A DNA stretch of 37,818 bases, taken from Actinomycetota bacterium. Lineage in GTDB: Bacteria; Actinomycetota; Rubrobacteria; Rubrobacterales; Rubrobacteraceae. The stretch covers positions 1-37,818 of the forward strand of contig CADDYV010000034.1 in assembly GCA_902810695.1 (NCBI GenBank). Reading direction: 5' to 3'. The notes beneath the pieces were generated by a model that worked only from the letters and a program-made list of their open reading frames with translations, was not told the DNA's origin and searched no databases. The translations under genes were made by a program, and so were the position numbers. Shown here piece by piece: positions 10,418 to 27,747 of this stretch (positions are counted from its first letter, which is position 1; each line of letters opens with the position of its first letter).

Positions 10418-13195
10418 CTAGAGGATTTTCAGTTCTCTTGCTCGCGCCACCGCCTGCGTGCGGCTGTTGACCCCGAGCTTGCGGTAGAGGTTGTTGATAT
10501 GGGTCTTGACGGTGCCCACGCTGACGAAAAGCTCTCTGGAGATCCGGCGGTTGCTCTCGCCGGCGGCTATGAGCTGGAGAACCTCGATCTCGCGCCCGCT
10601 CAGGGGTTCGGGGAGCCCCGCGATCGCTGACGCAGCACCCGAGGCATCCCGCTCCAGCACCGCCAGGAGCTTCCTGAGATAGTGCGTCGGGACGCGGCCA
10701 GGCAAATCTAATCTTCCCCGCTGCCGAGCTTCGAGTGTCGCGGAGAGGATCTCGACCATCCGGGGACCTTCGTCGGCAAAGGTCCTGACGTAGCCCTCTG
10801 GTTCGGCGAGGACGAGTGCTTCTTCCAGGATGCCCACGGCTCGCTCTTTCTCGCTTTTTGCCTGCAAGGCCAGTGCTTTTAGCGCAAGTGTCTCTATTGT
10901 TCTGCCTGTCGTCTCTACCGTCTCGTAAAGCTGCGCCAGCAGCCGCAGCGCCTCGTCTGGCTCGTTTCGGGCGAGTAGCAGTCGCGCCAGGATCAGACGC
11001 TCCAGCTCCCGCAAGTTGCGCTGGATCCCACCCGCTGCCCGCTCGTGCTCGGATGTGGCAGCCGCCAGATATCCCCTCATCAAATGCAGCCGCGCTTTCC
11101 AGAGCGCAGCACCGACGATCGCCTGAGGAGCACCCGAGTCCCGCGCCAGCCGCTCTGCCCTGCGGGCAAGATCTAGGGCGCTCTCCGCATCGCCCTGCGC
11201 CTGTCTTACCCGCGAGAGGGCGATATATCCTCGCATGAGGATCTCGAACTCTCCCGTGCGTCCGGCGAGCTTTACGCCTTCCGTCAAGTGGATCGCCGCG
11301 GACTCAAGGTCGTCCCACTCGTAGAGAAGCTCGCCCATCCCGATGCGCACGCTCCCCATGGCCGGCAGAAGCTCGCTCCCCCGCCCGGCTGCAAAGTCGA
11401 GGGCGCGCCGCAGAATGTCGTCGGCCTCGCGGAGATGTCCCCGTGCCAGTTGCAGATGGGCATGGGATGCCATGGCGCTCAACGCGATGTAATCGTGTCC
11501 GGCGGCCCGGCCCAGAGCCCCGGCCTCGGCAAATGCTACGCCCGCCGACTCGAGGTCGCCAGCGGCACGATAAGCCTCAGCCAGACAAATGGCGGCAAAT
11601 GGACGCGGGTTCAGGTTGTCCTCGGGCAGAAGAGAGAGGGCTCGCCGGGCGTGCTCGATGGCATCCTGCGTATCCCCCTGGAGGCGGGAGTATAGGGAGC
11701 GGACAGCCTCGGTAGTCGCCTGCAGATACTGGGGATCCTCATCGCCCGAGAGCGACTTCTCACCCCGACCTTCCCTCGCCATTCTGCCCGCACCCTCGGC
11801 TTCTCGCAGGAGAGACTCGACGCCATCGAACCGTCCGATCAGGATCAGCGCCGCGGCGTACCAGACCAGCAAAAGCGGTCGGCGACGCATCGTCTCTTTG
11901 GGAAGCTTTCTGAGCCAGTTAAGCAGCGTCACCACCTCGCCGCGATACCAGGTCTGGCCGATACCCTGCTCCATCAGCCGCGCCGCCCGCTCGTAGTCGC
12001 CGGCGGAGAGTGCATGCCGGACCGCCTCGGCGTCGAGTATGTTTTCCTCGCACCATTCGGAGGCCCTGAGGTGCAACACTGCCAGCTTCTCGGACCGTTC
12101 GCGTTCGAGTTTGCCACGCAGGAAGTCGGCGAAGAGGTGATGGTAACGATACCAGCGTCGCTCATCATCCAGGGGGACGACGAAGAGGTTCTCCCTCTCC
12201 AATCTCTCCAGCATCCTCTGGCTGTCACTGCGACCGGTTACCGCGTCGCACAACGGGCCGCTGAGGCTGTCCAGGATCGAGGTTTCGAGCAAGAACGTCT
12301 GCACACCTTCGATCTGCCTCTCCAGGACCTCTTCAGCCAGGAAATCGAAGACGTCGCGGTGCTCCCCGGAGAAGGAGCGGATGAAGCCCGAGATGTCCTC
12401 GCGATCTCTCATCGAGAGCGCGGCCAGCTGCAAGGCCGCGACCCAACCCTCCGTTATCTCTTCCAGCGCCGCTGCGTCCTCGGTTGAGAGGTCAAGGCCC
12501 ATCACGTCCTTCAAGAAGGCCGCCGCCTCCTCTGGTGTGAAGCGCAAGTCGGCGGCATGCAGCTCTCTCATCCGGCTTCGGGCCCGCAACCTGGCGAGCG
12601 GCAGGGGCGGGTCCACGCGGCTGGAGATGACGAGGTGAGCATCATCCGGCAGACGCTCCAACAAGAAAGAGACGATCCGGTGCACGCTCTCGGAGTCGAT
12701 CACATGGTAGTCGTCGAGGATTATGGTGATCTCCACCGGAAGTTCGGCAAGCTCGTTGACCAGCGCCCCCAGCACCGCCTCCATCCGCGGCGGCTCGGGC
12801 GAGCGGAGCGCGGCCAGCACCCCTTCACCGAACCCCTCTTCGACGTTACTTCCTAGCGCGGCGACGAGGTAAGAGAGGAATCGGACGGGATCGTTGTCTC
12901 CCTCATCCAGCAACACCCAGGCGACGGGACGTCCGCTGCGTGCCTGATCCCCGGCCCATTCGTAGAGGAGAGTGGTCTTGCCGAAGCCCGCGGGGGCGGA
13001 GAGCAGGGTTAGCCTGCGCCCCGGCTCGCGCGCCAGGCTCTCGATCAGGCGCAGCCTTCTAACCAGCTTCGAACGCTCCTGGGAAGGGTGCAGCTTGGTT
13101 GACAGGAGCGGGTCCAACGCGCGGATCACCTCCGGTGAGCTTTGCTCCTCGACACCACCCCGCCGCCCGACGATGCAGCGTCGCTTCAAAGCCAC
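10418..13195 (-). CDS. LAL-type (MalT-like) LuxR-family transcriptional activator
   Basis: A 925-residue STAND regulator. The N-terminus has the P-loop LLSAPAGFGKTTLL (lysine about residue 73), a Walker B ITIILDDYHVI and an NB-ARC-like ATPase region. A long middle of TPR-like helical hairpins follows (about residues 400-830). The last 65 residues are a LuxR/GerE HTH (LSGREIEVLQLIAAGESNRR, then VGTVKTHINNLYRKLGV). MalT-type proteins bind an inducer with the helical domain, oligomerise with ATP and activate nearby genes; the inducer here is unknown. The GTG start at 13195 has only a weak ribosome site. The adjacent SDR and the divergent gene at 13461 are plausible targets. Confidence 0.93.
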   Translation of the reverse strand: MALKRRCIVGRRGGVEEQSSPEVIRALDPLLSTKLHPSQERSKLVRRLRLIESLAREPGRRLTLLSAPAGFGKTTLLYEWAGDQARSGRPVAWVLLDEGDNDPVRFLSYLVAALGSNVEEGFGEGVLAALRSPEPPRMEAVLGALVNELAELPVEITIILDDYHVIDSESVHRIVSFLLERLPDDAHLVISSRVDPPLPLARLRARSRMRELHAADLRFTPEEAAAFLKDVMGLDLSTEDAAALEEITEGWVAALQLAALSMRDREDISGFIRSFSGEHRDVFDFLAEEVLERQIEGVQTFLLETSILDSLSGPLCDAVTGRSDSQRMLERLERENLFVVPLDDERRWYRYHHLFADFLRGKLERERSEKLAVLHLRASEWCEENILDAEAVRHALSAGDYERAARLMEQGIGQTWYRGEVVTLLNWLRKLPKETMRRRPLLLVWYAAALILIGRFDGVESLLREAEGAGRMAREGRGEKSLSGDEDPQYLQATTEAVRSLYSRLQGDTQDAIEHARRALSLLPEDNLNPRPFAAICLAEAYRAAGDLESAGVAFAEAGALGRAAGHDYIALSAMASHAHLQLARGHLREADDILRRALDFAAGRGSELLPAMGSVRIGMGELLYEWDDLESAAIHLTEGVKLAGRTGEFEILMRGYIALSRVRQAQGDAESALDLARRAERLARDSGAPQAIVGAALWKARLHLMRGYLAAATSEHERAAGGIQRNLRELERLILARLLLARNEPDEALRLLAQLYETVETTGRTIETLALKALALQAKSEKERAVGILEEALVLAEPEGYVRTFADEGPRMVEILSATLEARQRGRLDLPGRVPTHYLRKLLAVLERDASGAASAIAGLPEPLSGREIEVLQLIAAGESNRRISRELFVSVGTVKTHINNLYRKLGVNSRTQAVARARELKIL

Positions 13196-13340
13196 TCTTT
13201 CGACGTTCTCGTGTAGCAGATTTTTACATAGTTATCGTCTCACATGCCATATTGCAGATCCTGGTTTTCGAGACGCGGCTGCTCATTTGCACGCCCAATT
13301 CAACACAGGAAGCCCGACCACACAGACCGGTACGGGTAAC

Positions 13341-13369
13341 CTGTACTTCCGTACAGATGGGAAACCATC
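13341..13369. promoter_or_regulatory. Two adjacent inverted repeats upstream of the 13461 operon
   Basis: CTGTAC-TTCC-GTACAG (13341-13356) is a perfect 6-bp dyad. It overlaps by one base a second dyad, GATGG-GAAA-CCATC (13356-13369). Both lie in the 265-nt gap between the divergent LAL regulator and the F420-type operon. They could be repressor operators or RNA hairpins in a leader; the sequence does not decide. Confidence 0.45.
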
Positions 13370-13460
13370 CTTTCTCCCGTTGCAGCAACGCCAGCTCTTC
13401 TGGATAGTTAAGGCGCGAAGCACAACCGGCCAGATAACGCAGACGAGATCGGAGGCGGAT

Positions 13461-13814
13461 ATGGCAAGCATCAGGGAGAAGATAGAGCGCGAGATTGCGG
13501 GCTGGAAGGAGGTGGAGGTGAGATCGCACCGGTATGGCGGAGTCGAGTTTCGGGTGAAGGGTCACGAGATCGGACATCTGCACGGCGACAGGCTGGCGGA
13601 CCTTCCGTTTCCAGTGAAGATGAGGAAGAAGCTCGTGGCGGAGGGCAAGGCGCAGCTACACCACGTCCTTCCGCAGACGGGATGGGTAAGCTATCGGATC
13701 CAGAGCGAAAAGGATGTCGAGGGCGCGCTGGAGCTGTTCCGGCTCAACTACGAGAGGCTGATGGAGCGCGGTCGGCATGAGGACCGGGGCGAGGCGGTCG
13801 TGGAGGAGTCATGA
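13461..13814 (+). CDS. Luciferase-domain (DUF5519-like) protein
   Basis: A 117-residue protein with VEVRSHRYGGVEFRVKGHEI, GHLHGDRLADLPFPVKMRKK and HHVLPQTGWVSYRI, a pattern I recall from proteins annotated as 'luciferase domain' or DUF5519. No enzymatic role has been established to my knowledge; the conserved His-rich GHLHGD could bind a ligand. ATG 13461 is chosen because GGAGG lies five nt upstream, although the same frame is open for another 480 nt upstream, which is the shadow of the LAL gene. The last codons overlap the next gene by four nt (ATGA), so the two are cotranscribed. Confidence 0.8.
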   Translation: MASIREKIEREIAGWKEVEVRSHRYGGVEFRVKGHEIGHLHGDRLADLPFPVKMRKKLVAEGKAQLHHVLPQTGWVSYRIQSEKDVEGALELFRLNYERLMERGRHEDRGEAVVEES

Positions 13815-14224
13815 GCGTGTTTACCGAGAAGGAGATCGAGTATTTGAGGGAGCAGCGGCTGGGGAGGCTGGCGACGGTGAACGCGAGGGGCGAGCCGCAC
13901 GTGGTGCCGGTGGCTTTCCGGTACAACGAAGAGGCGGACGCGGTAGACATCGGCGGGCACCGCATCGCGAAGACCAAGAAGTACCGTGACGCGGGTTCTA
14001 CCGGAAGGGTGGCATTCGTGGTTGACGACGTGTTGCCGCCGTGGCAGGCGCGGGGCGTGGAGATCAGGGGTCGCGCGGAGATCCACGGAGAGGGCGGAGG
14101 CGATATCGGCCCCGGCTTCGCTCCGGAGTTGATCCGGATACACCCCGAGCGCATCGTGAGCTGGGGCCTCGACTCGGACGCCTTCAGCCGGAACAGCCGG
14201 ACGGTTGGCCGGAAGAGCGCATAA
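13811..14224 (+). CDS. PPOX-class, probably F420-dependent oxidoreductase
   Basis: A 137-residue split-barrel protein. The first hairpin LGRLATVNARGEPHVVPVAF is characteristic, followed by VDIGGHRIAKTKKYRD, where basic residues contact the cofactor phosphate, and VAFVVDDVLPPWQARGVEIRG. The end LIRIHPERIVSWGLDSDAF matches F420-dependent PPOX proteins of actinobacteria. F420 rather than FMN use is inferred from this family resemblance. The gene starts within the stop of the preceding gene (ATGA) and converges on an F420-type LLM gene 34 nt away. Confidence 0.88.
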   Translation: MSVFTEKEIEYLREQRLGRLATVNARGEPHVVPVAFRYNEEADAVDIGGHRIAKTKKYRDAGSTGRVAFVVDDVLPPWQARGVEIRGRAEIHGEGGGDIGPGFAPELIRIHPERIVSWGLDSDAFSRNSRTVGRKSA

Positions 14225-14258
14225 CCCAGGCTCGACCGGCGAGAAAGAAGCCCCGGAT

Positions 14259-15140
14259 CTAGAACTCGGCGACTGCGGGGATGACCTCCCGACCTATAAT
14301 CTCCAGCGGCGTGATGCGTTCCACGTTGGGGACGGCCCCGATCACCGTCTCGATTCCCATGCCTGAAAGCCAGCGCAGTTGCCCGATCAACTCCCCTGCC
14401 CTCTCACCCCGCTCGCCTACCTCGAAGGCGAACGCGCAGGTCTTCTCTATATCCTCGTACTCCCTACCCTCGGCCTCGCAGTGTCCTCGCAACACGTCGA
14501 GCTTCTTCGGTATCTCCGAGCCGGGGCGCAGGCTGCACGCGTCGGCGTAACGCGCAACCAGGCGCAAGGTTTTCCTCTCGCCATCACCTGCGATCATGAT
14601 GGGCGGATGGGGCCTCGCGATGCTCTGCGGGAGGTTGAGCGGACGCGCCAAGCGGTAATGCTTTCCCTCGAACGGGTGCTCGTCACCCCGCTCGCCACTC
14701 CACATCCGCAGGGCTATCCGAATCACCTCCTCCAGCATCTCGAAACGCTCCCTCTGCGGGGGGAATGGGATACCAAGCCCTCTCGCCTCCTCCTCGTAGT
14801 GCCCAGAACCGATACCCAGAGCGGCACGGCCTCCAGAGAGCACATCGAGCGTGGTAACGGCCTTGACCAGCACACTCGGATGGCGGAAGTGCACCCCGGA
14901 GACCATCGCGGTGAGCCTGATCGCCCTGGTGTTGGCGGCGATGAACGAGAGCATCGTATAGCACTCCGGTTCGTTTGCTAGCGGACCACCCATGATCGGG
15001 TGCTGCCAGAGGTGGTCCGCCACACCGATACGGTCGAACCCGGCTTCTTCGGCGGTCCGGGCGATCTCGGCCAGCGTAGCCCCAAATCGCTTGGGACCAC
15101 CCGTCCAGTCGAAGCTGTTGAGTTGAATTCCGAGCTTCAC
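14259..15140 (-). CDS. LLM-class F420-dependent oxidoreductase
   Basis: A 293-residue TIM-barrel of the luciferase-like monooxygenase superfamily. It starts KLGIQLNSFDW, with ARTAEEAGFDRIGVADHLW, VSGVHFRHPSVLVKAVTTLD and LGIGSGHYEEEARGLGIPFP, all typical of the F420-dependent branch. The segment HPPIMIAGDGERKTLRLVARYAD binds the cofactor phosphate region in homologues. The substrate is unknown. GTG 15140 has AGGAGG six nt upstream. In the corrected cupin frame the preceding stop would overlap this start as GTGA, so the two genes are likely coupled. Confidence 0.92.
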   Translation of the reverse strand: MKLGIQLNSFDWTGGPKRFGATLAEIARTAEEAGFDRIGVADHLWQHPIMGGPLANEPECYTMLSFIAANTRAIRLTAMVSGVHFRHPSVLVKAVTTLDVLSGGRAALGIGSGHYEEEARGLGIPFPPQRERFEMLEEVIRIALRMWSGERGDEHPFEGKHYRLARPLNLPQSIARPHPPIMIAGDGERKTLRLVARYADACSLRPGSEIPKKLDVLRGHCEAEGREYEDIEKTCAFAFEVGERGERAGELIGQLRWLSGMGIETVIGAVPNVERITPLEIIGREVIPAVAEF

Positions 15141-15143
15141 ACC

Positions 15144-15530
15144 TCACCTCCTGCCTGTTGCACGAGCCAGGCTACCTGGAGCTGATCCCCCTCGATCCAC
15201 TCGGTTACCTGCCATGCGTCCGCTGGTGTGGATGTCTACGTGCCGGGCCTGTCCGTCTCCGGAATTGACGAACCTGTGCGGTACGCTGGCCGGGGCGACG
15301 ACGATGTGGCCGCCTCTGGCCTCGATGGTGGCCTCGCCCACCGTGAAAGTGAGCTGGCCCTCCTGGACGACGAAAACCTCCGCGTAGGGGTGGGTGTGCA
15401 ACTCGGGACCCTGCCCGGACGGCGTCTCCGAAAGGAAGAACGAGACGTTCGCACCGCCATAGAGGTATCCCTCGAATCTGTAGTGGTTCCCGCTGTGCGG
15501 AAGTTCGTCTTTGTCTATGACACGGGTCAT
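15144..15530 (-). CDS. Cupin-domain protein (C-terminus probably frameshifted)
   Basis: A small single-cupin protein of 128 residues as read. Motif 1 is GPELHTHPYAEVFVVQEG, with two histidines and a glutamate as metal ligands, and motif 2 is PASVPHRFVNSGDG. Function could be a dioxygenase, isomerase or sensor. After HTSGRMAG the frame runs into NRVDRGGSAPGSLARATGRR, which looks non-native. Removing one G of the pair at 15208-15209 (CC on the plus strand) gives AVTEWIEGDQLQVAWL and a stop overlapping the next gene's GTG. HTSGRM-VTEW is the ending I expect for this subfamily. ATG 15530 is preceded by AAGGAG. Confidence 0.87.
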   Translation of the reverse strand: MTRVIDKDELPHSGNHYRFEGYLYGGANVSFFLSETPSGQGPELHTHPYAEVFVVQEGQLTFTVGEATIEARGGHIVVAPASVPHRFVNSGDGQARHVDIHTSGRMAGNRVDRGGSAPGSLARATGRR

Positions 15531-15561
15531 TTTCTCCTTCTTCTGGGTAGCTGCACTGGTG

Positions 15562-15954
15562 TCAGCGGTTCAAAAACGACGGCGCACCCGCGATCGGGCT
15601 CAGATGAAGACCGGCCAGCAGCCAGCGCCCATCCCGCTCAGCGAAGATCAGCGTCGCGCGAAACTCTCCGCCCACGTCGTTGCCCTGGAACTCGCCCGCC
15701 TGCTTCTGACGACCCGTCGCTACCGCAGCTTCACCGTAGAAGCGCATTTCTATCTCGTCGAGCCCGAAAGACTCGTAGGATAAGCCCCTCGCGTACCGCC
15801 CCAGCCACTGCTCCTTATTCAACATGAAGCCGAGCGGCCCCACACCGACGAAGTCTTCTGTCAGAGCCTCTTCCAGGAACGCGGCATCTTCGCGCTGCTC
15901 GGCTGCAGCCCACTTCTGAACAAACTCCTCCAGTCGCTGGCTCCGGTTGTCCAT
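15562..15954 (-). CDS. NTF2-like (SnoaL/DUF4440-type) protein
   Basis: A 130-residue cone-shaped NTF2-like fold. The N-terminal helix is EEFVQKWAAAEQREDAAFLEEALTEDFV, followed by GFMLNKEQWLGRYARG and the curved sheet strands EIEMRFYGEAAVATGRQ and FRATLIFAERDGRWLLAGLHLS. Members serve as isomerases, hydrolases or ligand-binding proteins; no catalytic residue set is diagnostic here. It is a single minus-strand gene 31 nt before the cupin gene and is probably cotranscribed with it. Confidence 0.85.
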   Translation of the reverse strand: MDNRSQRLEEFVQKWAAAEQREDAAFLEEALTEDFVGVGPLGFMLNKEQWLGRYARGLSYESFGLDEIEMRFYGEAAVATGRQKQAGEFQGNDVGGEFRATLIFAERDGRWLLAGLHLSPIAGAPSFLNR

Positions 15955-17769: not shown

Positions 17770-19353
17770 CTAGCTGAGGGTGACGGCGCGGGCTTCCTTG
17801 AAGCCAGGGATCTGCAGCAGGGCTTCGATCACACTTTCCGGGACGGGTTCGTCCACCGTCACGGCCATCGCCGCCCGGGAGCCCGGCTCTCCACGCCCGA
17901 CGGCCATGTTTCCGATGTTGATGCCGTGCTCGCCCAGAGCGGTGCCCAGCTTCCCGATCATACCTGGCACATCCTCGTTGCGGATGAAGAGCATGTGCTT
18001 CTCGGGCTCGATGTCCATGTCGAAGCCCATGGCCCCGACCAGACGCGGCTTCATCCGGGGTCCGACGAGCGTACCGCTCGCCATGCTCTCCCCCTCTGCG
18101 CTCTCCAGCCGCAGTACGACCAGGTTGGTGTAGTCGGCGCTCTCCGAGTAGCGCGAGGTCTCGACCCTGAAACCTCTCTCCCGGGCGAGCGCCGGGGTGT
18201 TGACGAAGTTCAGTGGTTCGTTGACCATCGGCGCAAGCAGGCCCTTCTGCGCGGAGACATCCAGAAGCCTGGTGTCGTAGCCGGAGATATCACCTCGGTA
18301 CTCGATCTTGAGGTGGTTTCCGGGACGGTCGGTTAGCTGGTAGAGCAGGTTTCCCAGCAGCTCGCAAAGCCCCGAGAACTGGGCGACAAACTCTGCCCCT
18401 TCGCCTACCGGGACCGGCGCGTTTATGGCGTGCACCGGGACCGCCCCGCGCAGGGCGATGGAGACCTGCTCGGCGGCTGTGATCCCGGCCCGGTCCTGCG
18501 CCTCGGCGGTGCTCGCCCCGAGGTGCGGCGTAACCACTACGTTGGAGAGCGAGAAGAGCGGAGAATCTGTTACCGGCTCCTCGGCGAAGACATCCAGTGC
18601 GGCACCGGAGATCTCACCTTCCTTGAGCGCGTTGTAGAGGGCCGTCTCGTCCACGAGGCCGCCGCGAGCCACGTTCAGCAGGTAGGCGCTCGGCTTCATC
18701 TTCGCCAGAGCCCCCTCGTCTATCATGCCCGTCGTCTGCGGGGTGCGCGGGACGTGCAGCGAGACGAAATCGGCCTCGGCGAGGATATCCTCGACTTCCT
18801 CGACCCTCTCGACGTTCATCGAGCGCATCCTCTCTTCGGAGACGTAGGGGTCGTAGGCGAGAACGCGCATCCCCATCCCGCGAGCGCCGCGGGCGACAAT
18901 GGAGCCGACGTGCCCCAATCCCACCAGCCCCAGCGTCTTCTCCGCGACCTCGATGCCCTTGAACGCGCTCCGCTTCCACTCTCCGGCGCGCAGCGAGGCG
19001 TCGGCGGCCGGGATGCGCCGGGCAACCGCGAGCATCAATCCCAAAGTGTGCTCGGCGGCGGCAACGGTGTTGCTCTCCGGGGCGTTGGCGACAATGATGC
19101 CGCGCTTGGTCGCCGCCTCGACGTCTATGTTGTCCACCCCGATCCCGGCCCGGCCCACCGCCTTGAGGTTCTGTGCCACCTCGATGACCTCCGCCGTAAC
19201 CTTCGTCCCGCTGCGGACGATGAGGCCGTCGTAGGAGCCGATCTTCTCCAGAAGCTCCTCCGGCGAGAGGCCGAGGAGCACGTCCACATCGAACTCCTCC
19301 TTGAGAAGCTCGATGCCGGGCTCGGCGAGCTTTTCGGTTATGAGTACCCTCAA
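17770..19353 (-). CDS. serA: D-3-phosphoglycerate dehydrogenase
   Basis: A 527-residue type 1 PGDH, which oxidises 3-phosphoglycerate to phosphohydroxypyruvate, the first step of serine synthesis. The catalytic and NAD domains show GRAGIGVDNID, the dinucleotide loop VGLGHVGSIVA near residue 150, NVARGG (catalytic Arg), ALDVFAEEP (Glu) and TPHLGAST (His). An intervening domain (about residues 320-450) and a C-terminal ACT domain, HMLFIRNEDVPGMIGKLG, follow; the ACT domain is the usual site of serine feedback. The start overlaps the aminotransferase stop by four nt (ATGA), so the pair is one operon. Confidence 0.97.
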   Translation of the reverse strand: MRVLITEKLAEPGIELLKEEFDVDVLLGLSPEELLEKIGSYDGLIVRSGTKVTAEVIEVAQNLKAVGRAGIGVDNIDVEAATKRGIIVANAPESNTVAAAEHTLGLMLAVARRIPAADASLRAGEWKRSAFKGIEVAEKTLGLVGLGHVGSIVARGARGMGMRVLAYDPYVSEERMRSMNVERVEEVEDILAEADFVSLHVPRTPQTTGMIDEGALAKMKPSAYLLNVARGGLVDETALYNALKEGEISGAALDVFAEEPVTDSPLFSLSNVVVTPHLGASTAEAQDRAGITAAEQVSIALRGAVPVHAINAPVPVGEGAEFVAQFSGLCELLGNLLYQLTDRPGNHLKIEYRGDISGYDTRLLDVSAQKGLLAPMVNEPLNFVNTPALARERGFRVETSRYSESADYTNLVVLRLESAEGESMASGTLVGPRMKPRLVGAMGFDMDIEPEKHMLFIRNEDVPGMIGKLGTALGEHGINIGNMAVGRGEPGSRAAMAVTVDEPVPESVIEALLQIPGFKEARAVTLS

Positions 19354-20507
19354 GCGGTTACCCCGCTCTTCGAGAACACCCGCTGCGCCGCCCCGACGCC
19401 GCTGCCTAGCTCGACCGGGTGGCCGAGGGATTCGAGCGCCAGCTCTATGGCGGCGATGGTGGAGATGATGTCGTAGGCGTCGAAGTAACCGCAGTGGCCG
19501 ATACGGAAGATCTTACCGCTCATCTGGCCCTGGCCGTTGGCGATCTGTATCCCGTGTTCCTCGAACACGACCCTGACGAGCTGCTTGCCGTCCACGCCCT
19601 CCGGCGCCCACGCCGCCGTGACCGCGGTGTTCATGTCCTCGTCCGGCCCGAAGAGCCTCAAGCCCATGCCCTTCACCCCGGCGCGCGCCGCCCGGCCGAG
19701 CAGGACGTGGCGCGCGAGGGCGTTCTCGAAGCCCTCGTCCATGATCTGCCTGAGGGCTATGTCAAGCTGCATGATGAGGCTCACCGGCGGGGTCCACGGC
19801 GTCTGAGGCGGGGTCTTCTCATAAGCCTTCTTCGCCGCCGTCCAGTCGAAGTAGAAGCGCGGCATCCGCGACTCCTCGTGCGCCCGCCACGCCCTCTCGG
19901 AGACGCTCACGAACCCGAGCCCCGGCGGGGTCATGAGCGCCTTCTGGCTGCCCGCGACGACCACATCCACGCCCCAATCATCGGTCCTCAGCTCGCAGCA
20001 GCCGAGCCCGGAGACGGCGTCCACGACCGTAAGTACGTTCTCCGTAGCCCTCGCGAAGCCCTCGATGTCGTTGACCGTCCCCGTAGAGGTCTCCGAGAGC
20101 ACGCAGATGGCGGCCTTTATCTCCGGGTCCGTGGCGAGGGCTTCCGCCACCTCGTCGTTATCCGCCTTCTGGCCCCAATCGTAGGCGAGCTCGATAACCT
20201 CCAGCCCGAAAGCCCGGCCCATCTTGACCCAGCGCTCCCCGAAGTTGCCGTTGTTCACGACGAGAACCCTGTCTCCGGGCGAGAAGAGGTTCTGGACCGC
20301 CCCCTCAAAAGCCCCGGTCCCGCTCGCGGCGTAGGTGAAGATGTCGTTGTCGGTCATAAAGACCCGCTTGAGGTTTTCGTTCACCCTGGTGAAGACCTCG
20401 CCGAACTCCGGCGTGCGGTGGTGGATGATCGGGAGCGCCCCCGCCGCCGACACCTCCGGCGGGATGGGAGTCGGACCGGGCGACATAAGACGATACTTGT
20501 TCATCAT
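19350..20507 (-). CDS. Class V aminotransferase (alanine/serine-glyoxylate type)
   Basis: A 385-residue fold-type I PLP enzyme. It starts RLMSPGPTPIPPEV and has YAASGTGAFEGAVQNL (phosphate cup), VDAVSGLGCCELRTDDWGVD (Asp to the pyridine N) and VAGSQKALMTPPGLGF, with the PLP lysine near residue 190. The family covers serine-glyoxylate, alanine-glyoxylate and, in some lineages, phosphoserine-type transamination. Its ATGA overlap with serA suggests that it supplies or consumes serine or phosphoserine here; this is inference from context. ATG 20507 (or 20504) lies about 12 nt after GAGGAG. Confidence 0.92.
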   Translation of the reverse strand: MMNKYRLMSPGPTPIPPEVSAAGALPIIHHRTPEFGEVFTRVNENLKRVFMTDNDIFTYAASGTGAFEGAVQNLFSPGDRVLVVNNGNFGERWVKMGRAFGLEVIELAYDWGQKADNDEVAEALATDPEIKAAICVLSETSTGTVNDIEGFARATENVLTVVDAVSGLGCCELRTDDWGVDVVVAGSQKALMTPPGLGFVSVSERAWRAHEESRMPRFYFDWTAAKKAYEKTPPQTPWTPPVSLIMQLDIALRQIMDEGFENALARHVLLGRAARAGVKGMGLRLFGPDEDMNTAVTAAWAPEGVDGKQLVRVVFEEHGIQIANGQGQMSGKIFRIGHCGYFDAYDIISTIAAIELALESLGHPVELGSGVGAAQRVFSKSGVTA

Positions 20508-20740
20508 GGTCTCTGAAGGCTCCTCTCTGTCTGACTCCCGGCTATTTTAGACACAACCTCTCACGAAAGCTACATAGTGGGGCAGAGAGTTTACAAGCTG
20601 TTGCTTTCCTGACCAGGAGTTTCCCACGAGACACGCAGCAGCAAGTCATCAGCGAAGTCCTGACAACGTCGCTGAGCACTAAAGCCAGGAGCCTCTCGAA
20701 ACGATAATAGAAACAATAGCGGCAGGCTCGAGAGTCTAGG

Positions 20741-20746
20741 TAGTAT
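20741..20746 (+). promoter_or_regulatory. -10-like box just upstream of the three-gene operon (possible leaderless start)
   Basis: TAGTAT ends four nt before ATG 20751, and no Shine-Dalgarno sequence is present. This suggests a very short or absent 5' UTR, though the spacing is slightly tight for a TSS exactly at the ATG. The 243-nt gap separates it from the divergent aminotransferase gene. Confidence 0.4.
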
Positions 20747-20750
20747 ACAA

Positions 20751-22241
20751 ATGGCAAGGATATTCTACGACGTAGAACAGGCGGCGCGTAAGCTAGGAAG
20801 TTCCGTGCAGGAGGTCGAAGCTCTGATCTCCTCGAAAGAGCTTTCGATCTTATCCATCGGCAACAGACGCGTGATACCCGCCAGAGACGTTGACAACTTG
20901 CTCAACCGCAACACCCCCAGGCCCATAAATTCATCCAGAGCCAGGGAAGTCGGCTCCGTCTCTGGCAAGGAACATTCGGGAGATAAACACCAACGAACAG
21001 AGAGACCCGCTGAAGACTACGGCAGAATAATCGAAGCAGCTCAGAGGCTGGGCAAATCTATCAACCAGGTGAAACAGATGATCGCTGAAGGGCATCTATC
21101 TCTGGACCCGAATAGCGGAAAGCTGGTTACGCTCGCTCAAGGCTCGGATACCTCACCGGACGATCGGGTCGCGCGAAAGGCTCCGGCAATCCCACCGGGT
21201 AGGAATGTCAAAGCACGGACTCAAAACGAGCCTGATACCCGGAGGATAAGCGAGCTCGAGGAATGGATACGAGACCTCCAAGACGAACTACATGCCGCGA
21301 GAGAAGAAAAAGAGGGTCTGGTTGAAGAACTGCAACAAGAACGTGAGGGGCACCAGAGAGACCTTCGCGACGCTCAGTACGAGATAAACCAGCTCGATGC
21401 TGCGCTGGAGAACCAGCGCCGTAACCACGCCGAGCAGATCAAGGCTCTACGCGAGGAGTTGAAGAAGAACTCAGCAGACAAGGATGACGATAAGCAGGAT
21501 CCAAAGCCGGGTCGAGGCTATCTACGTAGATTCATTACTGCGCAAACATCCGATGCCCAAAGAGAGAGGGAGCTAGAAGACGAAGTCAAGGCACTCAAGG
21601 TAACCCTGCGGACCGACAGAGCCTATCTGCAACGAGAGTTGGAAAGAGAACGGGAAGGACGCAAGCAGGATAGCCTGAAGGCTCAGGAAAAGCTGGACTC
21701 CGAACTCGAGAGCCTGCGTAGCGCTTTGGAAGCCCGGAACAGAGCGCTACAGGCAGAGCTGGAAGAGGTGCGATCGCACCTAGAGGACGAGAGGGCTAGG
21801 AGATCGTCCGCGGAAGAACTCTTACGCTTAGAAAGGGATAAGAGACAACACCTGGAATCCGAGATCGGTATCCTGAATGAGATCCGCCGTCTTCTCGGAG
21901 CAGGCAGCACACAACAGTCCGAACAGTCTGCGGACGGCACTCCTCCAGCACTGGATCCAGACGGCGTCTCCAGCAAACTCGTCCTCAAAACCCCGTCGGG
22001 TCAGGTCTCCCTATCATCGCCCTTTGAGCTGGACGACAAAGAAAAAGAGTTGCTGTCGCTAATCGCCGAGCACGGCGAGTTGACGGCGGAGCAGATCACG
22101 ACCCTGACCGGGCGTCCCCGGCACCGCGCGGTCAGGGACCTGGAGGAGTTACTGGACCGGCTCAAAGATGAAGACATCGATATCGTAAAGCAGAGCGGGA
22201 ATCGTTACATCTTCGATCCCGCTACGCTACAAGACCTGTAA
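20751..22241 (+). CDS. Tandem HTH / coiled-coil / winged-helix protein of a BrxD-helicase operon
   Basis: A 496-residue protein I cannot assign to a named family. Residues about 4-52 form a MerR/excisionase-like HTH (FYDVEQAARKLGSSVQEVEA, IPARDVDNLL). A second similar unit lies at about 90-125 (IIEAAQRLGKSINQVKQMIA). Residues about 160-385 are a long charged coiled coil rich in E, R, Q and L. Residues about 425-496 form a winged helix (LLSLIAEHGELTAEQITTLT, then RHRAVRDLEELLDRL). The layout suggests a DNA-binding, oligomerising scaffold or sensor for the ATPase and helicase that follow. A 13-nt gap with a strong ribosome site separates it from the ATPase. One hand-counted 60-nt sample (20881-20940) has 32 G/C, low for this window. 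Confidence 0.8.
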   Translation: MARIFYDVEQAARKLGSSVQEVEALISSKELSILSIGNRRVIPARDVDNLLNRNTPRPINSSRAREVGSVSGKEHSGDKHQRTERPAEDYGRIIEAAQRLGKSINQVKQMIAEGHLSLDPNSGKLVTLAQGSDTSPDDRVARKAPAIPPGRNVKARTQNEPDTRRISELEEWIRDLQDELHAAREEKEGLVEELQQEREGHQRDLRDAQYEINQLDAALENQRRNHAEQIKALREELKKNSADKDDDKQDPKPGRGYLRRFITAQTSDAQRERELEDEVKALKVTLRTDRAYLQRELEREREGRKQDSLKAQEKLDSELESLRSALEARNRALQAELEEVRSHLEDERARRSSAEELLRLERDKRQHLESEIGILNEIRRLLGAGSTQQSEQSADGTPPALDPDGVSSKLVLKTPSGQVSLSSPFELDDKEKELLSLIAEHGELTAEQITTLTGRPRHRAVRDLEELLDRLKDEDIDIVKQSGNRYIFDPATLQDL

Positions 22242-22254
22242 GGAGGGGAGCAGC

Positions 22255-23544
22255 ATGGCGCTTACCAGGAACACTGCCAGAGACATAATCAGCGCTCTGC
22301 GCAACGGGACCGTCCCGCGAGAAGGGCTGCACGAGTACGCTGTGGGTCTCGATCAGCACATGAAGGTGATGAACGAAGACCTGGACGATGTAGCTGCGGG
22401 TAGGGGACGGGTAAAGTTCGTCCGCGGCGAGTATGGAGCAGGCAAGACCTTCCTCTCGCACCTCCTGATGGAAACGGCCTTAAAGAGACGCTTCGTCGTC
22501 TCCAACGTGGTTATCTCCAGGGACACGCCCCTGCACAAGATGGAAGAGGTCTACCATGAGATCGTCAACAACCTGAGTACGCCACGTCAGAAGACCAGGG
22601 CGCTGCAGGGCCTCATAAACAACTGGATCCTCCGTACGGAGGACCACCTGATCCGGGTCGAAGACTTCAGCGAAGATGATCCTCGCCTACTCAAACGGAC
22701 CGAAGAGGAGATCGAGAACAAGCTCGCTATCCTGGCGAACGAACGCTCAGACTTTCCGGCCGTACTTCGTGCTTACTACAGGGCGAATGCTCAGGATGAC
22801 TACCAATCGGCTCAGCGGCTGCTAGGCTGGCTCTCGGGAGAGAAGAACGTTAGCGCCCAGGTAATGCGTCAGACGGGAGTAAAAGGGCGCATAGACCAAA
22901 CTATGGTCTTCTCCTTCTTGCGCATCCTGGCAGAGATCGCCCACCAAGCCGGAAGATCCGGTTTCGTTGTGGTGCTGGATGAGGTCGAGACGATCACGCG
23001 CCTCAGAACAGCATATGAGCGCGAGCAAAGCCTGCAGACCATCCGCCAGATCGTGGACGCAGTAGATGAGGGACACCTGCCCCGCTGCTACTTCGTCTTC
23101 ACCGGAACCCCGGACTTCTTCGACAATGCTCGCAGGGGCGTTCGCTCGCTCCGACCACTCGACGAGCGCATCCGGCTGGAAGATCCGAACGATCCGCACC
23201 CCAACTACCGGCAGGCACAGATCGTGATCCCGGAATTCGACCGCAATAAGCTCTTGACTGTAGGCAAACGTGTCCAGGAGATCTATGAGATAGCCTACGG
23301 CGCCTTGGACTCCTCCAGGGCCTCGGACGCATTGCTAGAGTCCCTCGCGGACCGGATGACCGCCCGGTTCGGTGGAGAGGTCGGGATCGTACCCCGGCAG
23401 TTCCTGCGCCAGTTCGTGGACACCTTCGACCGCATACAGGCTTACGAGGATTACGAACCTCTGGGCAGGATAGACGAAGAGCTCTCCCGGCAGCTATCTT
23501 CCAACAACCTCACGGAAATAGAGGAAGCCAACCTTACCTGGTAA
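22255..23544 (+). CDS. BrxD-type (DUF2791) P-loop ATPase
   Basis: A 429-residue ATPase resembling BrxD, the ATP-binding protein of type 2 BREX (DUF2791 family). Walker A is GEYGAGKTFLSHLL (residues about 58-65), Walker B is FVVVLDEVETI (about 238-243), and a sensor-like FVFTGTPDFF follows near 282-290. In BREX, BrxD is encoded beside an Lhr-type helicase; its biochemical role is not settled. ATG 22255 has AAGGAGG eight nt upstream. The stop is immediately followed by the helicase start with no spacer, implying translational coupling and probably complex formation. No Pgl or methyltransferase genes are nearby. Confidence 0.87.
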   Translation: MALTRNTARDIISALRNGTVPREGLHEYAVGLDQHMKVMNEDLDDVAAGRGRVKFVRGEYGAGKTFLSHLLMETALKRRFVVSNVVISRDTPLHKMEEVYHEIVNNLSTPRQKTRALQGLINNWILRTEDHLIRVEDFSEDDPRLLKRTEEEIENKLAILANERSDFPAVLRAYYRANAQDDYQSAQRLLGWLSGEKNVSAQVMRQTGVKGRIDQTMVFSFLRILAEIAHQAGRSGFVVVLDEVETITRLRTAYEREQSLQTIRQIVDAVDEGHLPRCYFVFTGTPDFFDNARRGVRSLRPLDERIRLEDPNDPHPNYRQAQIVIPEFDRNKLLTVGKRVQEIYEIAYGALDSSRASDALLESLADRMTARFGGEVGIVPRQFLRQFVDTFDRIQAYEDYEPLGRIDEELSRQLSSNNLTEIEEANLTW

Positions 23545-25674
23545 GTGGCAGAGTCAGCGTACTTCCGGCTCTCCGAGAGGCTTCAGCGGGGTATCGTGTC
23601 GGTGCTCCGGTGGACGGATTTCCGTCCGGTGCAGGAGCTCACCATCGAGGCCGTGTTCGCGGACAAGAATGTAGTTGTCCTGGCTCCCACAGCCGGGGGG
23701 AAGACAGAGGCGGCCTTCTTCCCCGTGCTGGACCTTCTCCACCTGGACTCGGTCGAAGGTGTCGGGTGCATCTACGTCTCCCCGCTGCGGGCGCTGCTGA
23801 ACAACCAGGAGGGCAGGATCCAACAACTCGCCGGGTTGGTCGGGCTGGATGCCTTCAAGTGGCACGGAGACGTAGGCGCAAGTCCCAGGAACCGCTTCCT
23901 CAAGAGTCTGGCGAGCGTGCTGATGACCACGCCTGAGTCGCTCGAAGTTCTTCTGATGAGCGGACAGGGTGAGAAGTACCGGTTGTTCGATAACGTGCGG
24001 TTCATCGTAATAGACGAGATTCATGCCTTCGCCGCCGATGACCGCGGCGCTCATTTGATGGCGCTCATAGAGCGCATTCAGAGAACCTCAAACACGGACA
24101 TACAACGCATCGGGCTCTCTGCTACCGTGGGTAACCCCGAAGACCTCGCCGTCTGGATGCAGGGAACCAGCGAGAGGGAGTGGACAGTAGTTGACCCACC
24201 TCAGATCCCGAGAAAAAGAACGGTAAAGATCCACTACGCAGAAGGAGAATCTGAAGAGACTGCAGCCTCGGCTGTACCGGTCGCCTACGGTCGCAAGAGT
24301 ATCTTCTTCACCCAGGGTCGTGCAGAGACCGAACGTGTGCGGCAAGCTTTTGCACGTCAAGGGGTCGAGGTCTTCGTCCATCACTCTTCGGTCTCCAAGA
24401 GCTTCAGAGAAGAAGCGGAAAGAATATTCATGGAGACCGAGAGAGCCGCCACCATAGTCAGCACCTCGACGCTGGAGTTAGGCATAGACGTTGGCGACCT
24501 CGACCTCATCCTACAACTTGACGCACCGTTGACCGTTTCATCTTTCTTGCAGCGTATGGGCCGCACCGGCAGGCGTGAAGGAACCAACCCTCACATTGAG
24601 TTCTTCACGACCAGCAGAGAGAGTTTGCTGCAGGCTGTAGCGATAGTAAATCTGGCTCGGCGGAGGTTCGTTGAAAAGGTCGAGCCCTCTCAGAAGAATT
24701 TCCCAGTTTTTCTGCACCAGATACTGGCGCAGGTTGTCGAGCGAACATACGTGAGAAGGTACGCACTTTGGCAGGCCCTGCAGGGTCCCACCTCCTTTCG
24801 CGACATAAGCCGCGATAACTTCGATAAGGTCGTGGATCATCTCCTAAAGACGGGAATCCTCGAGCTATTAGATCGGGGACTCGTCTTAGGAGAAGAAGGT
24901 GAGCGCATCTTCGGCGGGAGGAACTTCTTCAACCTGTACTCCGTCTTCGAGACACCGGCTGAAGTAGTGGTGAAGACAAAGGACGGGCGTGTAATCGGAA
25001 CGCTCGAGACCATGTTCGTACGCCGGATGAAGAACGAGGAGTTCAGCTTCCTCCTCGCCGGTAGAGCGTGGCGGGCTGTGGACGTAGACCTGGTTAATGG
25101 AGTTGTAGTAGCGATCCCGGTCGCTGGCGGAGAGGCTCCAAAATGGCACGGCGCAGGCGGGTTTCTCGGGCGTGAGATCGCCGAGGAGATGCGATGTATT
25201 CTGCTTTCAGAGGAGGAATTTCCTTTTGTAGACAATGCAGGCCGGGAGCAGATACGGCAGATGAGCGAGGAGCTTCGACCTATTCTCATTCGTGATCGTT
25301 GCCCCATCACTGTCGAGAAAGACAAAGCTCATGTTCACACTTACGCAGGAGGGAGAATCAATGCCACCATCGCAGCCCTGCTTGAAGACGGTGGCATAAT
25401 CGAGGTTCGAGGACTTGGAGATTTAGGGCTCACTCTAAAGAGTGCTTTGGGCATAACCACCGTCAGGAAAGCTCTACTCAAGCTGCAAGGTTCCGCCGCT
25501 CATCTGTCTCCCTCAGATCTGGCTCGAATCGTGTCCAAGAAGCAGCGAGGGAAACTGGCCAAGTTCCAACCGTATCTTCCTGCAGACCTTGAAGGTGAGT
25601 ATCTCGCGAACAAGCTATTCGATCTTCAAGGGATGTCGTCGCTTGTAAAAGAAGCAGGTTTTGAAATCATTTGA
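23545..25674 (+). CDS. Lhr/BrxHI-type DEAD/DEAH superfamily 2 helicase
   Basis: A 709-residue SF2 helicase. It has a Q-motif region FRPVQELTIEAVF, motif I APTAGGKTEAA (lysine about 53), motif Ia VSPLRALLNNQ, motif II VIDEIHAF (about 157-160), motif III LSATVGNP, motif V TSTLELGIDVGDLD and motif VI QRMGRTGRREG (about 336-343). After the RecA pair comes an Lhr-like winged helix and a beta-rich domain with MFVRRMKNEEFSFLLAGRAW. It probably translocates on nucleic acid as partner of the BrxD-like ATPase. GTG 23545 directly abuts the ATPase stop. Two hand-counted 60-nt samples (24601-24660 and 25201-25260) each have 31 G/C, against 47 in a gatA sample (31201-31260). Confidence 0.9.
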   Translation: MAESAYFRLSERLQRGIVSVLRWTDFRPVQELTIEAVFADKNVVVLAPTAGGKTEAAFFPVLDLLHLDSVEGVGCIYVSPLRALLNNQEGRIQQLAGLVGLDAFKWHGDVGASPRNRFLKSLASVLMTTPESLEVLLMSGQGEKYRLFDNVRFIVIDEIHAFAADDRGAHLMALIERIQRTSNTDIQRIGLSATVGNPEDLAVWMQGTSEREWTVVDPPQIPRKRTVKIHYAEGESEETAASAVPVAYGRKSIFFTQGRAETERVRQAFARQGVEVFVHHSSVSKSFREEAERIFMETERAATIVSTSTLELGIDVGDLDLILQLDAPLTVSSFLQRMGRTGRREGTNPHIEFFTTSRESLLQAVAIVNLARRRFVEKVEPSQKNFPVFLHQILAQVVERTYVRRYALWQALQGPTSFRDISRDNFDKVVDHLLKTGILELLDRGLVLGEEGERIFGGRNFFNLYSVFETPAEVVVKTKDGRVIGTLETMFVRRMKNEEFSFLLAGRAWRAVDVDLVNGVVVAIPVAGGEAPKWHGAGGFLGREIAEEMRCILLSEEEFPFVDNAGREQIRQMSEELRPILIRDRCPITVEKDKAHVHTYAGGRINATIAALLEDGGIIEVRGLGDLGLTLKSALGITTVRKALLKLQGSAAHLSPSDLARIVSKKQRGKLAKFQPYLPADLEGEYLANKLFDLQGMSSLVKEAGFEII

Positions 25675-25717
25675 CGCTTTGTATTTCGATCTCCTACTCA
25701 TCTGATCCCTGTAAAGC

Positions 25718-26518
25718 TCAGAACTCCTTCAGAACGTCACCCACGCTCAGCCTCCCGGGACTGTCGTGGATGAGGTTTTGCCCGAAGAGCACTTTGCCGC
25801 CGAATCTGCGATATGTGGCGAGCGTGCGGAGAGGTTCTTTGCTTCTGTCGGCGGTTTGCTGGTCTATGGTGGGGATCGCGCATCGGGCGCAGGGCTTTAC
25901 GACGCGGAACTCCATCTCTCCGATACGGATGCGGCTCCAACCATCTTCGGCGTGTGATCCGCAGCCGCTGACGACGAGGTTGGGCCGAAAGCGGTTCATG
26001 GGCAGCGGCTCCTGGAGCCTGCCGTTCAGGTTTTTAAGAGAAGCCTCGGAGATGAGCAGAAACGGGAAGCCGTCGGCGAGGCCGACCTGATCCCCTGATC
26101 TCCCGTAATCCTGGCGTACGATCCTTACAGATGATTCCGGCAGATAGACCAGCCTGCACCTCACTCCCAGAAACTCACCGAACCACCGGTCGGCCTCTTT
26201 GCCCACCGGCAGCACGCTCACTTCATCGCTCCAGACACTGGCCTGAACAGGCTCACGGGCTGCAGGCTGGAAGGGCACGCACAACGTTGACATCCCCGGA
26301 GCGTCCACGGCGAGACCATCGGGATGCAGGCCAACCCGGATCAGGGCCATCCGCGGGAGCCTGCGCTGCGAGAGGAAGACGCCTTCCTCGTCAACCAGCA
26401 TCCAGCGGCGGTCGTGGCGCAGGCCGCGCTCGTCCACCTCTGAGGTATCCAGGGAGATACCGGATGTGGATTTGATCGGGTAGATGTTTATCTGGCTCAG
26501 GGTGATACCGCTCATCAT
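25718..26518 (-). CDS. MOSC-domain protein (mARC/YcbX-like)
   Basis: A 266-residue protein with an N-terminal beta-barrel (INIYPIKSTSGISLDTSEV, GLRHDRRWMLVDEEG) and a C-terminal MOSC domain. The latter includes FRPNLVVSGCGSHAEDGW and the cysteine motif VVKPCARCAIPTID, whose first Cys ligates molybdenum in mARC-type enzymes. The family reduces N-hydroxylated compounds or handles molybdenum cofactor sulfur. The start overlaps the preceding stop (ATGA), so it ends a gatB, IlvD-like, MOSC operon. It converges on the helicase gene 43 nt away, with no clear terminator hairpin between them. Confidence 0.92.
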   Translation of the reverse strand: MMSGITLSQINIYPIKSTSGISLDTSEVDERGLRHDRRWMLVDEEGVFLSQRRLPRMALIRVGLHPDGLAVDAPGMSTLCVPFQPAAREPVQASVWSDEVSVLPVGKEADRWFGEFLGVRCRLVYLPESSVRIVRQDYGRSGDQVGLADGFPFLLISEASLKNLNGRLQEPLPMNRFRPNLVVSGCGSHAEDGWSRIRIGEMEFRVVKPCARCAIPTIDQQTADRSKEPLRTLATYRRFGGKVLFGQNLIHDSPGRLSVGDVLKEF

Positions 26519-27747
26519 CCGAAGCCGGCTCCTTCGAGCGCCGGGAGCGCCGAGTGAGCGTAACGGATGGCGTAGGCTGTTCCAGTAGGTTCCTCACCCA
26601 CAAAAGGCACCCGGAGATCCAGGTCATCAGCTTTGACGTTCGCGCGGATGCGCCGCCTCTCGAAGTCCATCCGCAGGTGATCCCCATCCTCCAGGCGTCC
26701 GATGACCCCATCCTCGGAAGCTTCGGGTGTGGTGAGGGATACCCAGATCCCCGCCGCGTCCTCCGGTTCCATCCCGTCGGTGAATACGGGAACGTTTCCA
26801 GCGAGTCCTGCTTCCTCCAGAGCTTCCTGGAGCCGGACGAGCCTCAACAGTCCCGGACCGCCTCGCGGACCGCAACCGCGCAGCACTATAAAGGCGGAAT
26901 CATCTACCTCGCCATCGCGCACCGCCCGCGCCGCCTCTTCCTCGGAGTCAAAGACCCGGCAATCTCCCTCCACCTCCGGCAGGTCACCTGGAACCCGGCA
27001 GACGGCTTCCATACCAGATGCCCTTCCCCTCATGAAGACAAGCCGCCCGCCGGTAGTCTCCGGGGCTGGCGGCGCGGGCGGCAGGGACTCTTTCAGGAAA
27101 CCAGATACGGTGCTCGTATCGTGGATGTCCTCGCCCAGATACGCCAGCAGTCCCTCCAGCCCGTGCTCCCGGAACCACGCGGACTCTTTACCGGCGACCT
27201 GCGGGGTTTCACGGCCTACCACCCTTATCGTGTCCTCGAACCCGAAGACCTGCGCCTCCCTGGCGATGGTCGCCAGATGCACTAGAAGCTCCGATCCCCC
27301 GCCCATCGAGAGCCCCGCCCGCAGCGCGTTCGTCAAAGAGAAGCTCTCGACCACGTAGTCGGCCTGCGGCCAGTTTTCACGTGCGATCTCCACGGCGACT
27401 TCTGCCGGGCTCTTTCCGAACCGCGATAGCCCCATTGCTGCCAGAGCCCCGGTGAACGGAGTCTCTGGCCGGGCCGCGCAGACCGCCGGAAGGTCTCTGC
27501 GGATGGCGGCGATCAAACCCGCAGCGAGCATCTCCGGGGAGTCCGCGTCGAAGAGCAGAGCCTGGGGCTCAATAGAGACGAGGCTGGCTTCGAGAAGGTC
27601 CGCGGTCCACTCCCGTACCAGGGCGACGCCCCCTGCAAGCGCCTCCGGAGCGGGGACAGGAACCGGCTCGCCACCTGCTTCCCTTACAGCATCTTTGTGA
27701 TCGGGAGCGCCCGGCGAGAAGATCGCGATGCGCGGAATGTCGCTCAG
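26515..27747 (-). CDS. Degenerate IlvD/Edd-family protein, probable CTG start
   Basis: A protein of about 410 residues that aligns by eye with dihydroxy-acid dehydratase (IlvD). [22 protein letters not shown] matches the substrate-loop helix, [12 protein letters not shown] the GPKGGPGM segment, and [11 protein letters not shown] the end domain. Key catalytic features are gone. The NCDKITPGM iron-sulfur ligand region reads DADSPEML, and the DGRFSGG serine loop reads [10 protein letters not shown]. It is also well short of the 550-600 residue norm. It may be a non-catalytic or repurposed paralogue. No ATG, GTG or TTG precedes 27531 in frame, yet good homology extends further upstream. CTG at 27745-27747, overlapping the gatB stop as CTGA and eight nt after GGAGAGG, is the likely start. 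Confidence 0.75.

Follow-up and report, generated by a model that had tools for sequence, protein, structure and literature searches.

A candidate three-gene anti-phage module built on a BrxD-BrxHI pair in a Rubrobacteraceae genome

The BrxD ATPase and the BrxHI helicase have so far been discussed mainly within BREX type 2, whose remaining components are PglW, PglX, PglY and PglZ. A winged helix has been reported at the end of the BREX-2 PglZ, whose gene lies just before brxD, and a role as loader of BrxHI has been proposed for BrxD by others (PMC12839542). Shango, in which a related ATPase-helicase pair (SngB and SngC) is combined with one TerB protein (SngA), has been experimentally found to be antiphage (PMC10250203). 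In both types of locus, the gene preceding brxD encodes a component of the system. SngC, BrxHI, DruE and DpdJ have been grouped in an SF2 clade that is potentially distinct and whose defining trait is antiphage function (PMC12278908). Druantia type III (DruH-DruE) provides a precedent for the association of a sensor with a helicase (PMC13192584, PMC13316683), the sensor role of DruH being itself indirectly supported (PMC13192584).

The operon described here lies within a window of 37,818 nucleotides, the whole stretch of DNA that was analysed, and consists of three genes, designated A, B and C. Judged by sequence, B and C are already recognisable as relatives of BrxD and BrxHI, and A is their unrecognised partner. 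On balance, we take the operon for an anti-phage module of three genes, so far uncatalogued and with the BrxD-BrxHI pair at its core, in which A is probably the exchangeable sensor subunit of an undescribed defence variant. No description of an HTH/coiled-coil protein combined with BrxD and BrxHI was found in the open-licence literature searched. The first-pass annotation of this DNA had called the operon a candidate undescribed defence or DNA-processing module. The word undescribed stands for the libraries and literature searched; it does not extend to B and C, recognised relatives of BrxD and BrxHI, nor to the layout, which parallels that of Shango, a system left unnamed there although related TerB-linked ATPase-helicase operons were mentioned.

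Organization of the operon and its products

The features of the operon and of its flanks are reported in Table 1. The three genes, all on the plus strand and separated by gaps of 13 and 0 nt, are positioned exactly as annotated at first. Their GC content is 55-58% and their GC3 0.61-0.73, against 64-67% and 0.84-0.90 for the serA, aminotransferase, gatB and gatA genes of the window. A contrast of about 52% against 78% (gatA) had initially been put forward from hand-counted samples; the contrast is real, its size is smaller, and gatA itself is at 67%. The counterpart operon found in a second genus (genome G005) is likewise lower in GC, with a GC3 of 0.50 for its gene A. Counts of promoters and terminators around the operon showed no clear excess over shuffled sequence, and no nuclease was recognised among the three genes. 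Further to the right, a short IlvD/Edd-like protein (window 26515-27531) adjoins gatB, as it does in most family members examined.

Table 1. Features of the operon and of the adjoining regions; positions refer to the window.
Feature	Position	Strand	Basis
Gene A, HTH/coiled-coil/winged-helix protein, proposed sensor/adaptor, 496 aa	20751..22241	+	ORF and domains
A, HTH_17 (Xis/BldC/MerR-like) domain 1, residues 5-54	20763..20912	+	Pfam E=9.5e-10
A, HTH domain 2, residues 90-127	21018..21131	+	Rv2175c_wHTH E=6e-6; AF2
A, long coiled coil, helices 162-243 and 255-384	21234..21902	+	AF2 pLDDT mostly >90
A, C-terminal beta-hairpin and winged helix, residues 410-488	21978..22214	+	AF2, domain alone, mean pLDDT 84.6
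Gene B, BrxD-family ATPase, 429 aa	22255..23544	+	NF033438; separate tree lineage
B, Walker A, GEYGAGKT	22426..22449	+	translation reading
B, Walker B, VVVLDE	22966..22983	+	translation reading
Gene C, BrxHI-type SF2 (Ski2/Lhr-like) helicase, 709 aa, GTG start	23545..25674	+	PADLOC BrxHI, SngC
C, helicase motif I, APTAGGKT	23683..23706	+	translation reading
Left flank, class-V aminotransferase, conserved in family	19350..20507	-	matched in 35/39 family genomes
Right flank, MOSC-domain protein	25718..26518	-	adjacent gene
Approximate lineage-specific segment, missing from G017 slot	20606..25735	.	L069 homology ends ~20605, restarts ~25736

The first HTH domain of A is modelled by AF2 with a pLDDT of about 79-90, and its top Foldseek matches are Pukovnik Xis and BldC (best E=0.014). 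The second is recognised by the Rv2175c_wHTH model with 26.5 bits, slightly below the cut-off of 27.1. The C-terminal domain produced only generic winged-helix matches (MarR/IclR/ArsR-type), and all Foldseek matches of both the N- and the C-terminal parts are above E=0.001. In the full-length model, obtained from a two-sequence alignment, the HTH and coiled-coil parts are well supported, with an uncertain overall arrangement (pTM 0.23). Pfam and AF2 together bear out the tandem-HTH, coiled-coil and winged-helix architecture that had been read from the translation. A model covering the whole of A was found in none of Pfam, NCBIfam, PADLOC 2.0.0 and PHROGs.

The relative of A in G005 is a protein of 783 aa, 40% identical over the aligned columns (30% by tblastn), which carries an additional N-terminal domain and three HTH repeats, the extra one being read from sequence, in place of the two found in the window. 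Between the same genomes, B and C are 67% and 63% identical, so that A changes much faster. A could merely be a transcription regulator of the BrxD-BrxHI pair, as those found upstream of other defence loci, given that it is the first gene of the operon and that its N-terminus is HTH_17/BldC/Xis-like. We consider this unlikely, because A also features a coiled coil of about 220 residues and a C-terminal winged helix, is encoded on the same strand as B and tightly spaced from it, diverges rapidly with a varying number of HTH repeats, and occupies the place where Shango and BREX-2 encode system components.

The product of gene B is matched by Pfam BrxC_BrxD (E=8.6e-125) and, with 429.6 bits over residues 5-424, by the NCBIfam BrxD model NF033438, whose cut-off is 350; no PDB sequence match was found. 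The PADLOC BrxHI model PDLC02503, for which no cut-off is given, scores C at 723.9 bits over residues 4-703 (E=4.6e-218). In addition to motif I, the SF2 motifs DEIH, SAT and QRMGRTGRR were read in its translation, and the set is intact. A P-loop ATPase with intact Walker A and B and an SF2 helicase complete in its motifs, as originally proposed, are therefore both confirmed.

Relation of the operon to BREX, Shango and other systems

In order to place B, a tree of 31 BrxD proteins was evaluated. Group labels were taken from annotation for plasmid loci and from a reading of predicted neighbours for genome loci; Pfam was applied to four of the first genes, and the PglZ-2 and TerB_C models to five of the genomes. 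B and its G005 relative form a branch of their own (support 100/99), and the TerB-linked BrxD relatives a separate group (100/100), outside which B falls. The lineage of B sits beside BREX-2 and BREX-6, with a support of 90/86 for this join, below the starring threshold.

The genome carrying the window (G000) is about 98% complete, in 148 contigs. PglZ-2 (NF033446) was unmatched in it and strong in three BREX-2 control genomes, and TerB_C, present in two control genomes, was not found. By definition, the operon is therefore neither BREX nor Shango. PF08665 (PglZ) was also empty in G000, but this model misses BREX-2 PglZ: it scores an annotated one (L079:5254-7977) at merely E=0.012, and is thus unsafe for showing the absence of BREX-2. 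For the PglX-2 methyltransferase, the best match in G000 reaches 44.6 bits, where the cut-off is 400, and sub-cut-off matches occur also in 8 unrelated control genomes, which do not include a positive control for PglX-2. Among the neighbouring genes examined there are no pgl genes (PglW and PglY included), no TerB genes and no recognised defence genes. The earlier statements that pgl and TerB genes are missing nearby, and that the operon is self-contained and outside any BREX locus, hold for these neighbours and, as regards PglZ-2 and TerB_C, for the whole of G000.

Homologues of B and C follow one another in BREX type 2 as they do here, and the operon might be the remnant of such a locus after loss of pglW, pglX, pglY and pglZ; B scores above the threshold of the NCBIfam BrxD model, and BrxHI is the nearest family to C. 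This origin appears very unlikely, as B branches outside BREX-2 and BREX-6, PglZ-2 was not found in G000, and another genus retains the A-B pair as well as a C in the corresponding slot. Shango shares with the operon an identical three-gene plan, made of a partner, a BrxC/BrxD-family ATPase and a BrxHI-clade helicase, and the SngB and SngC models of PADLOC score B and C at 203 and 496 bits. A divergent Shango, in which SngA is altered beyond recognition, is nevertheless improbable to a like degree: A is an HTH/coiled-coil/winged-helix protein without a TerB match at E<=1, TerB_C is missing from G000, and B belongs to a different, fully supported ATPase lineage, apart from the TerB-linked group.

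A BrxD-BrxHI pair with a coiled-coil protein directly before brxD, as in the operon, is also carried by a Deinococcus psychrotolerans plasmid (NZ_CP034187). Its partner differs from A in having LRV repeats or a coiled coil alone, with no HTH_17, and its BrxD, which is long-branched and of uncertain placement in the tree, is 32.5% identical to B. On this plasmid (NZ_CP034187.1; L085:3993-7969, 12827-15657) the pair follows two coiled-coil proteins, one of them with LRV repeats, and no Pgl or TerB annotation is present within 8 kb of it. The plasmid has another brxD copy, which is truncated and is preceded by an AAA protein, McrB-like by eye. Druantia type III resembles the operon in that its effector, an SF2 helicase, is paired with a rapidly evolving protein proposed to be a sensor, but it has no BrxD ATPase, and its helicase DruE is a different one, with a reported nuclease activity.

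Distribution and chromosomal slot

Gene C is present in 4 of the 39 family genomes (G000, G005, G012 and G284) and was not found in the other 35, some of which are incomplete. Family searches detected A and B only in G000 and G005, plus one weak HTH match in G025. A and B thus occur together at only two loci, and all three genes lie on one contig solely in the window.

In G005 the operon occupies the same chromosomal slot as in the window. A and B adjoin the same aminotransferase, and the contig ends 109 residues into C; the remaining C (63% identical) opens another contig, followed by RDD, MOSC, a dehydratase-like gene and gatB, which is the order of the window except for RDD. We infer that the two contigs join, giving a C split across them. 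In keeping with the initial reading, the first gene and the ATPase are thus found together in one further genus, where the helicase lies on another contig, at its matching end. In G012, from a third genus, C alone is visible (67% identical), cut at a contig end, and the aminotransferase contig begins 90 bp upstream of that gene; the operon probably recurs there in the same slot. The C remnant of G284, from a fourth genus, is frameshifted and missing before about residue 159. Beside this broken helicase, a 132-aa HTH and zinc-ribbon-like ORF and an IS3-type transposase, both identified by eye, occupy the place expected for A and B (L106:11891-13561). In G017, a congener of G005 only 60% complete, the slot is empty, the neighbouring aminotransferase and MOSC genes being separated by about 280 bp. 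The operon is patchy rather than universal, in support of the first-pass reading.

The identities of C among the four genomes range between 59 and 67%, below those of gatB (76-82%; G000, G005 and G284) and of the aminotransferase (81-85%; G000, G005 and G012). This is compatible both with an old presence at the slot followed by losses and with exchange among members of the family. The separate origin suggested earlier was not sustained: the slot is common to several genera, and the operon may therefore be old in the family. That the genes serve housekeeping DNA repair or recombination, as the conserved slot and the Lhr-like winged-helix region of C would allow, is highly improbable, given the few genomes with C, the empty slot, the pseudogene with its transposase, and the 245 bits of C on the best repair-helicase model (cut-off 850) against 724 on BrxHI.

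Scans of genome contigs for relatives recovered only the G005 contig. Viral contigs yielded no relatives, phages none of B, and plasmids none of A or of its C-terminus. Among 395 genomes of the phylum, the BrxHI model extended the family matches by G012 alone, the others being BREX-2, TerB-linked or unplaced. Loci from Persicobacter and Azospirillum turned out on reading to be TerB-linked and BREX-like. A BrxHI-like helicase was noticed in G163 (L100:6232-7977), on an 8.5-kb contig in which BrxD was not found.

The slot, bounded by the aminotransferase and dehydratase-like genes (window 20508-25717; L059-L078), differs in its contents from one family member to another. As named by sequence reading, they include an extracellular-solute-binding/transport set, a hybrid kinase, a P450 and a PAS-GGDEF-EAL protein. 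No defence genes were recognised by eye in the slot of the relatives (L059-L078), and the idea of a defence hotspot was discarded, metabolic and signalling genes being held there instead.

Possible mode of action and the C-terminal winged helix

The roles proposed for the candidate module are drawn from Shango, the SF2 defence clade, the loader proposal for BrxD and Druantia III: A would serve as sensor or positioning factor, B as loader and C as the unwinding enzyme. A would oligomerise via its coiled coil, and its HTH array would bind DNA or a feature of the invader, either sensing it or positioning the complex; the C-terminal winged helix may contact B or DNA. At that site B, an ORC/Cdc6-like ATPase, would then load or activate C, and C would translocate and unwind the invading DNA, which could block its replication or expose it to host nucleases. 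Recruitment of the ATPase and the helicase to DNA by the HTH protein, as supposed in the first-pass annotation, is a conjecture. A three-gene set devoid of methyltransferase and PglZ isolates the BrxD-BrxHI pair, and would offer a simple test of the loader-helicase idea.

More tentatively, the pair may be a portable helicase chassis, on which interchangeable first subunits dock via a small C-terminal winged-helix-like domain. The BREX-2 PglZ, the Shango TerB protein and the Deinococcus LRV/coiled-coil protein might be such subunits, and A would provide a fourth sensor type. An unbiased HMM search with the C-terminus of A gave no significant match, and the shared adaptor is for this reason put forward as no more than a hypothesis. 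Should first subunits prove exchangeable, BREX-2, Shango and this operon would be connected by a common mechanism, and phage triggers would best be sought in the rapidly evolving first gene.

The possible C-terminal likeness was first spotted by eye and then tested, using BREX-2/6 sequences for PglZ. On average, the C-terminal profile of A scores the PglZ, TerB and Deinococcus C-termini above background. Profile-profile comparisons produced P values of 0.0036 (PglZ), 0.0047 (TerB) and 0.049 (Deinococcus), and rank enrichment, calculated on non-independent sequences, p-values of 2e-4, 0.018 and 0.014, respectively.
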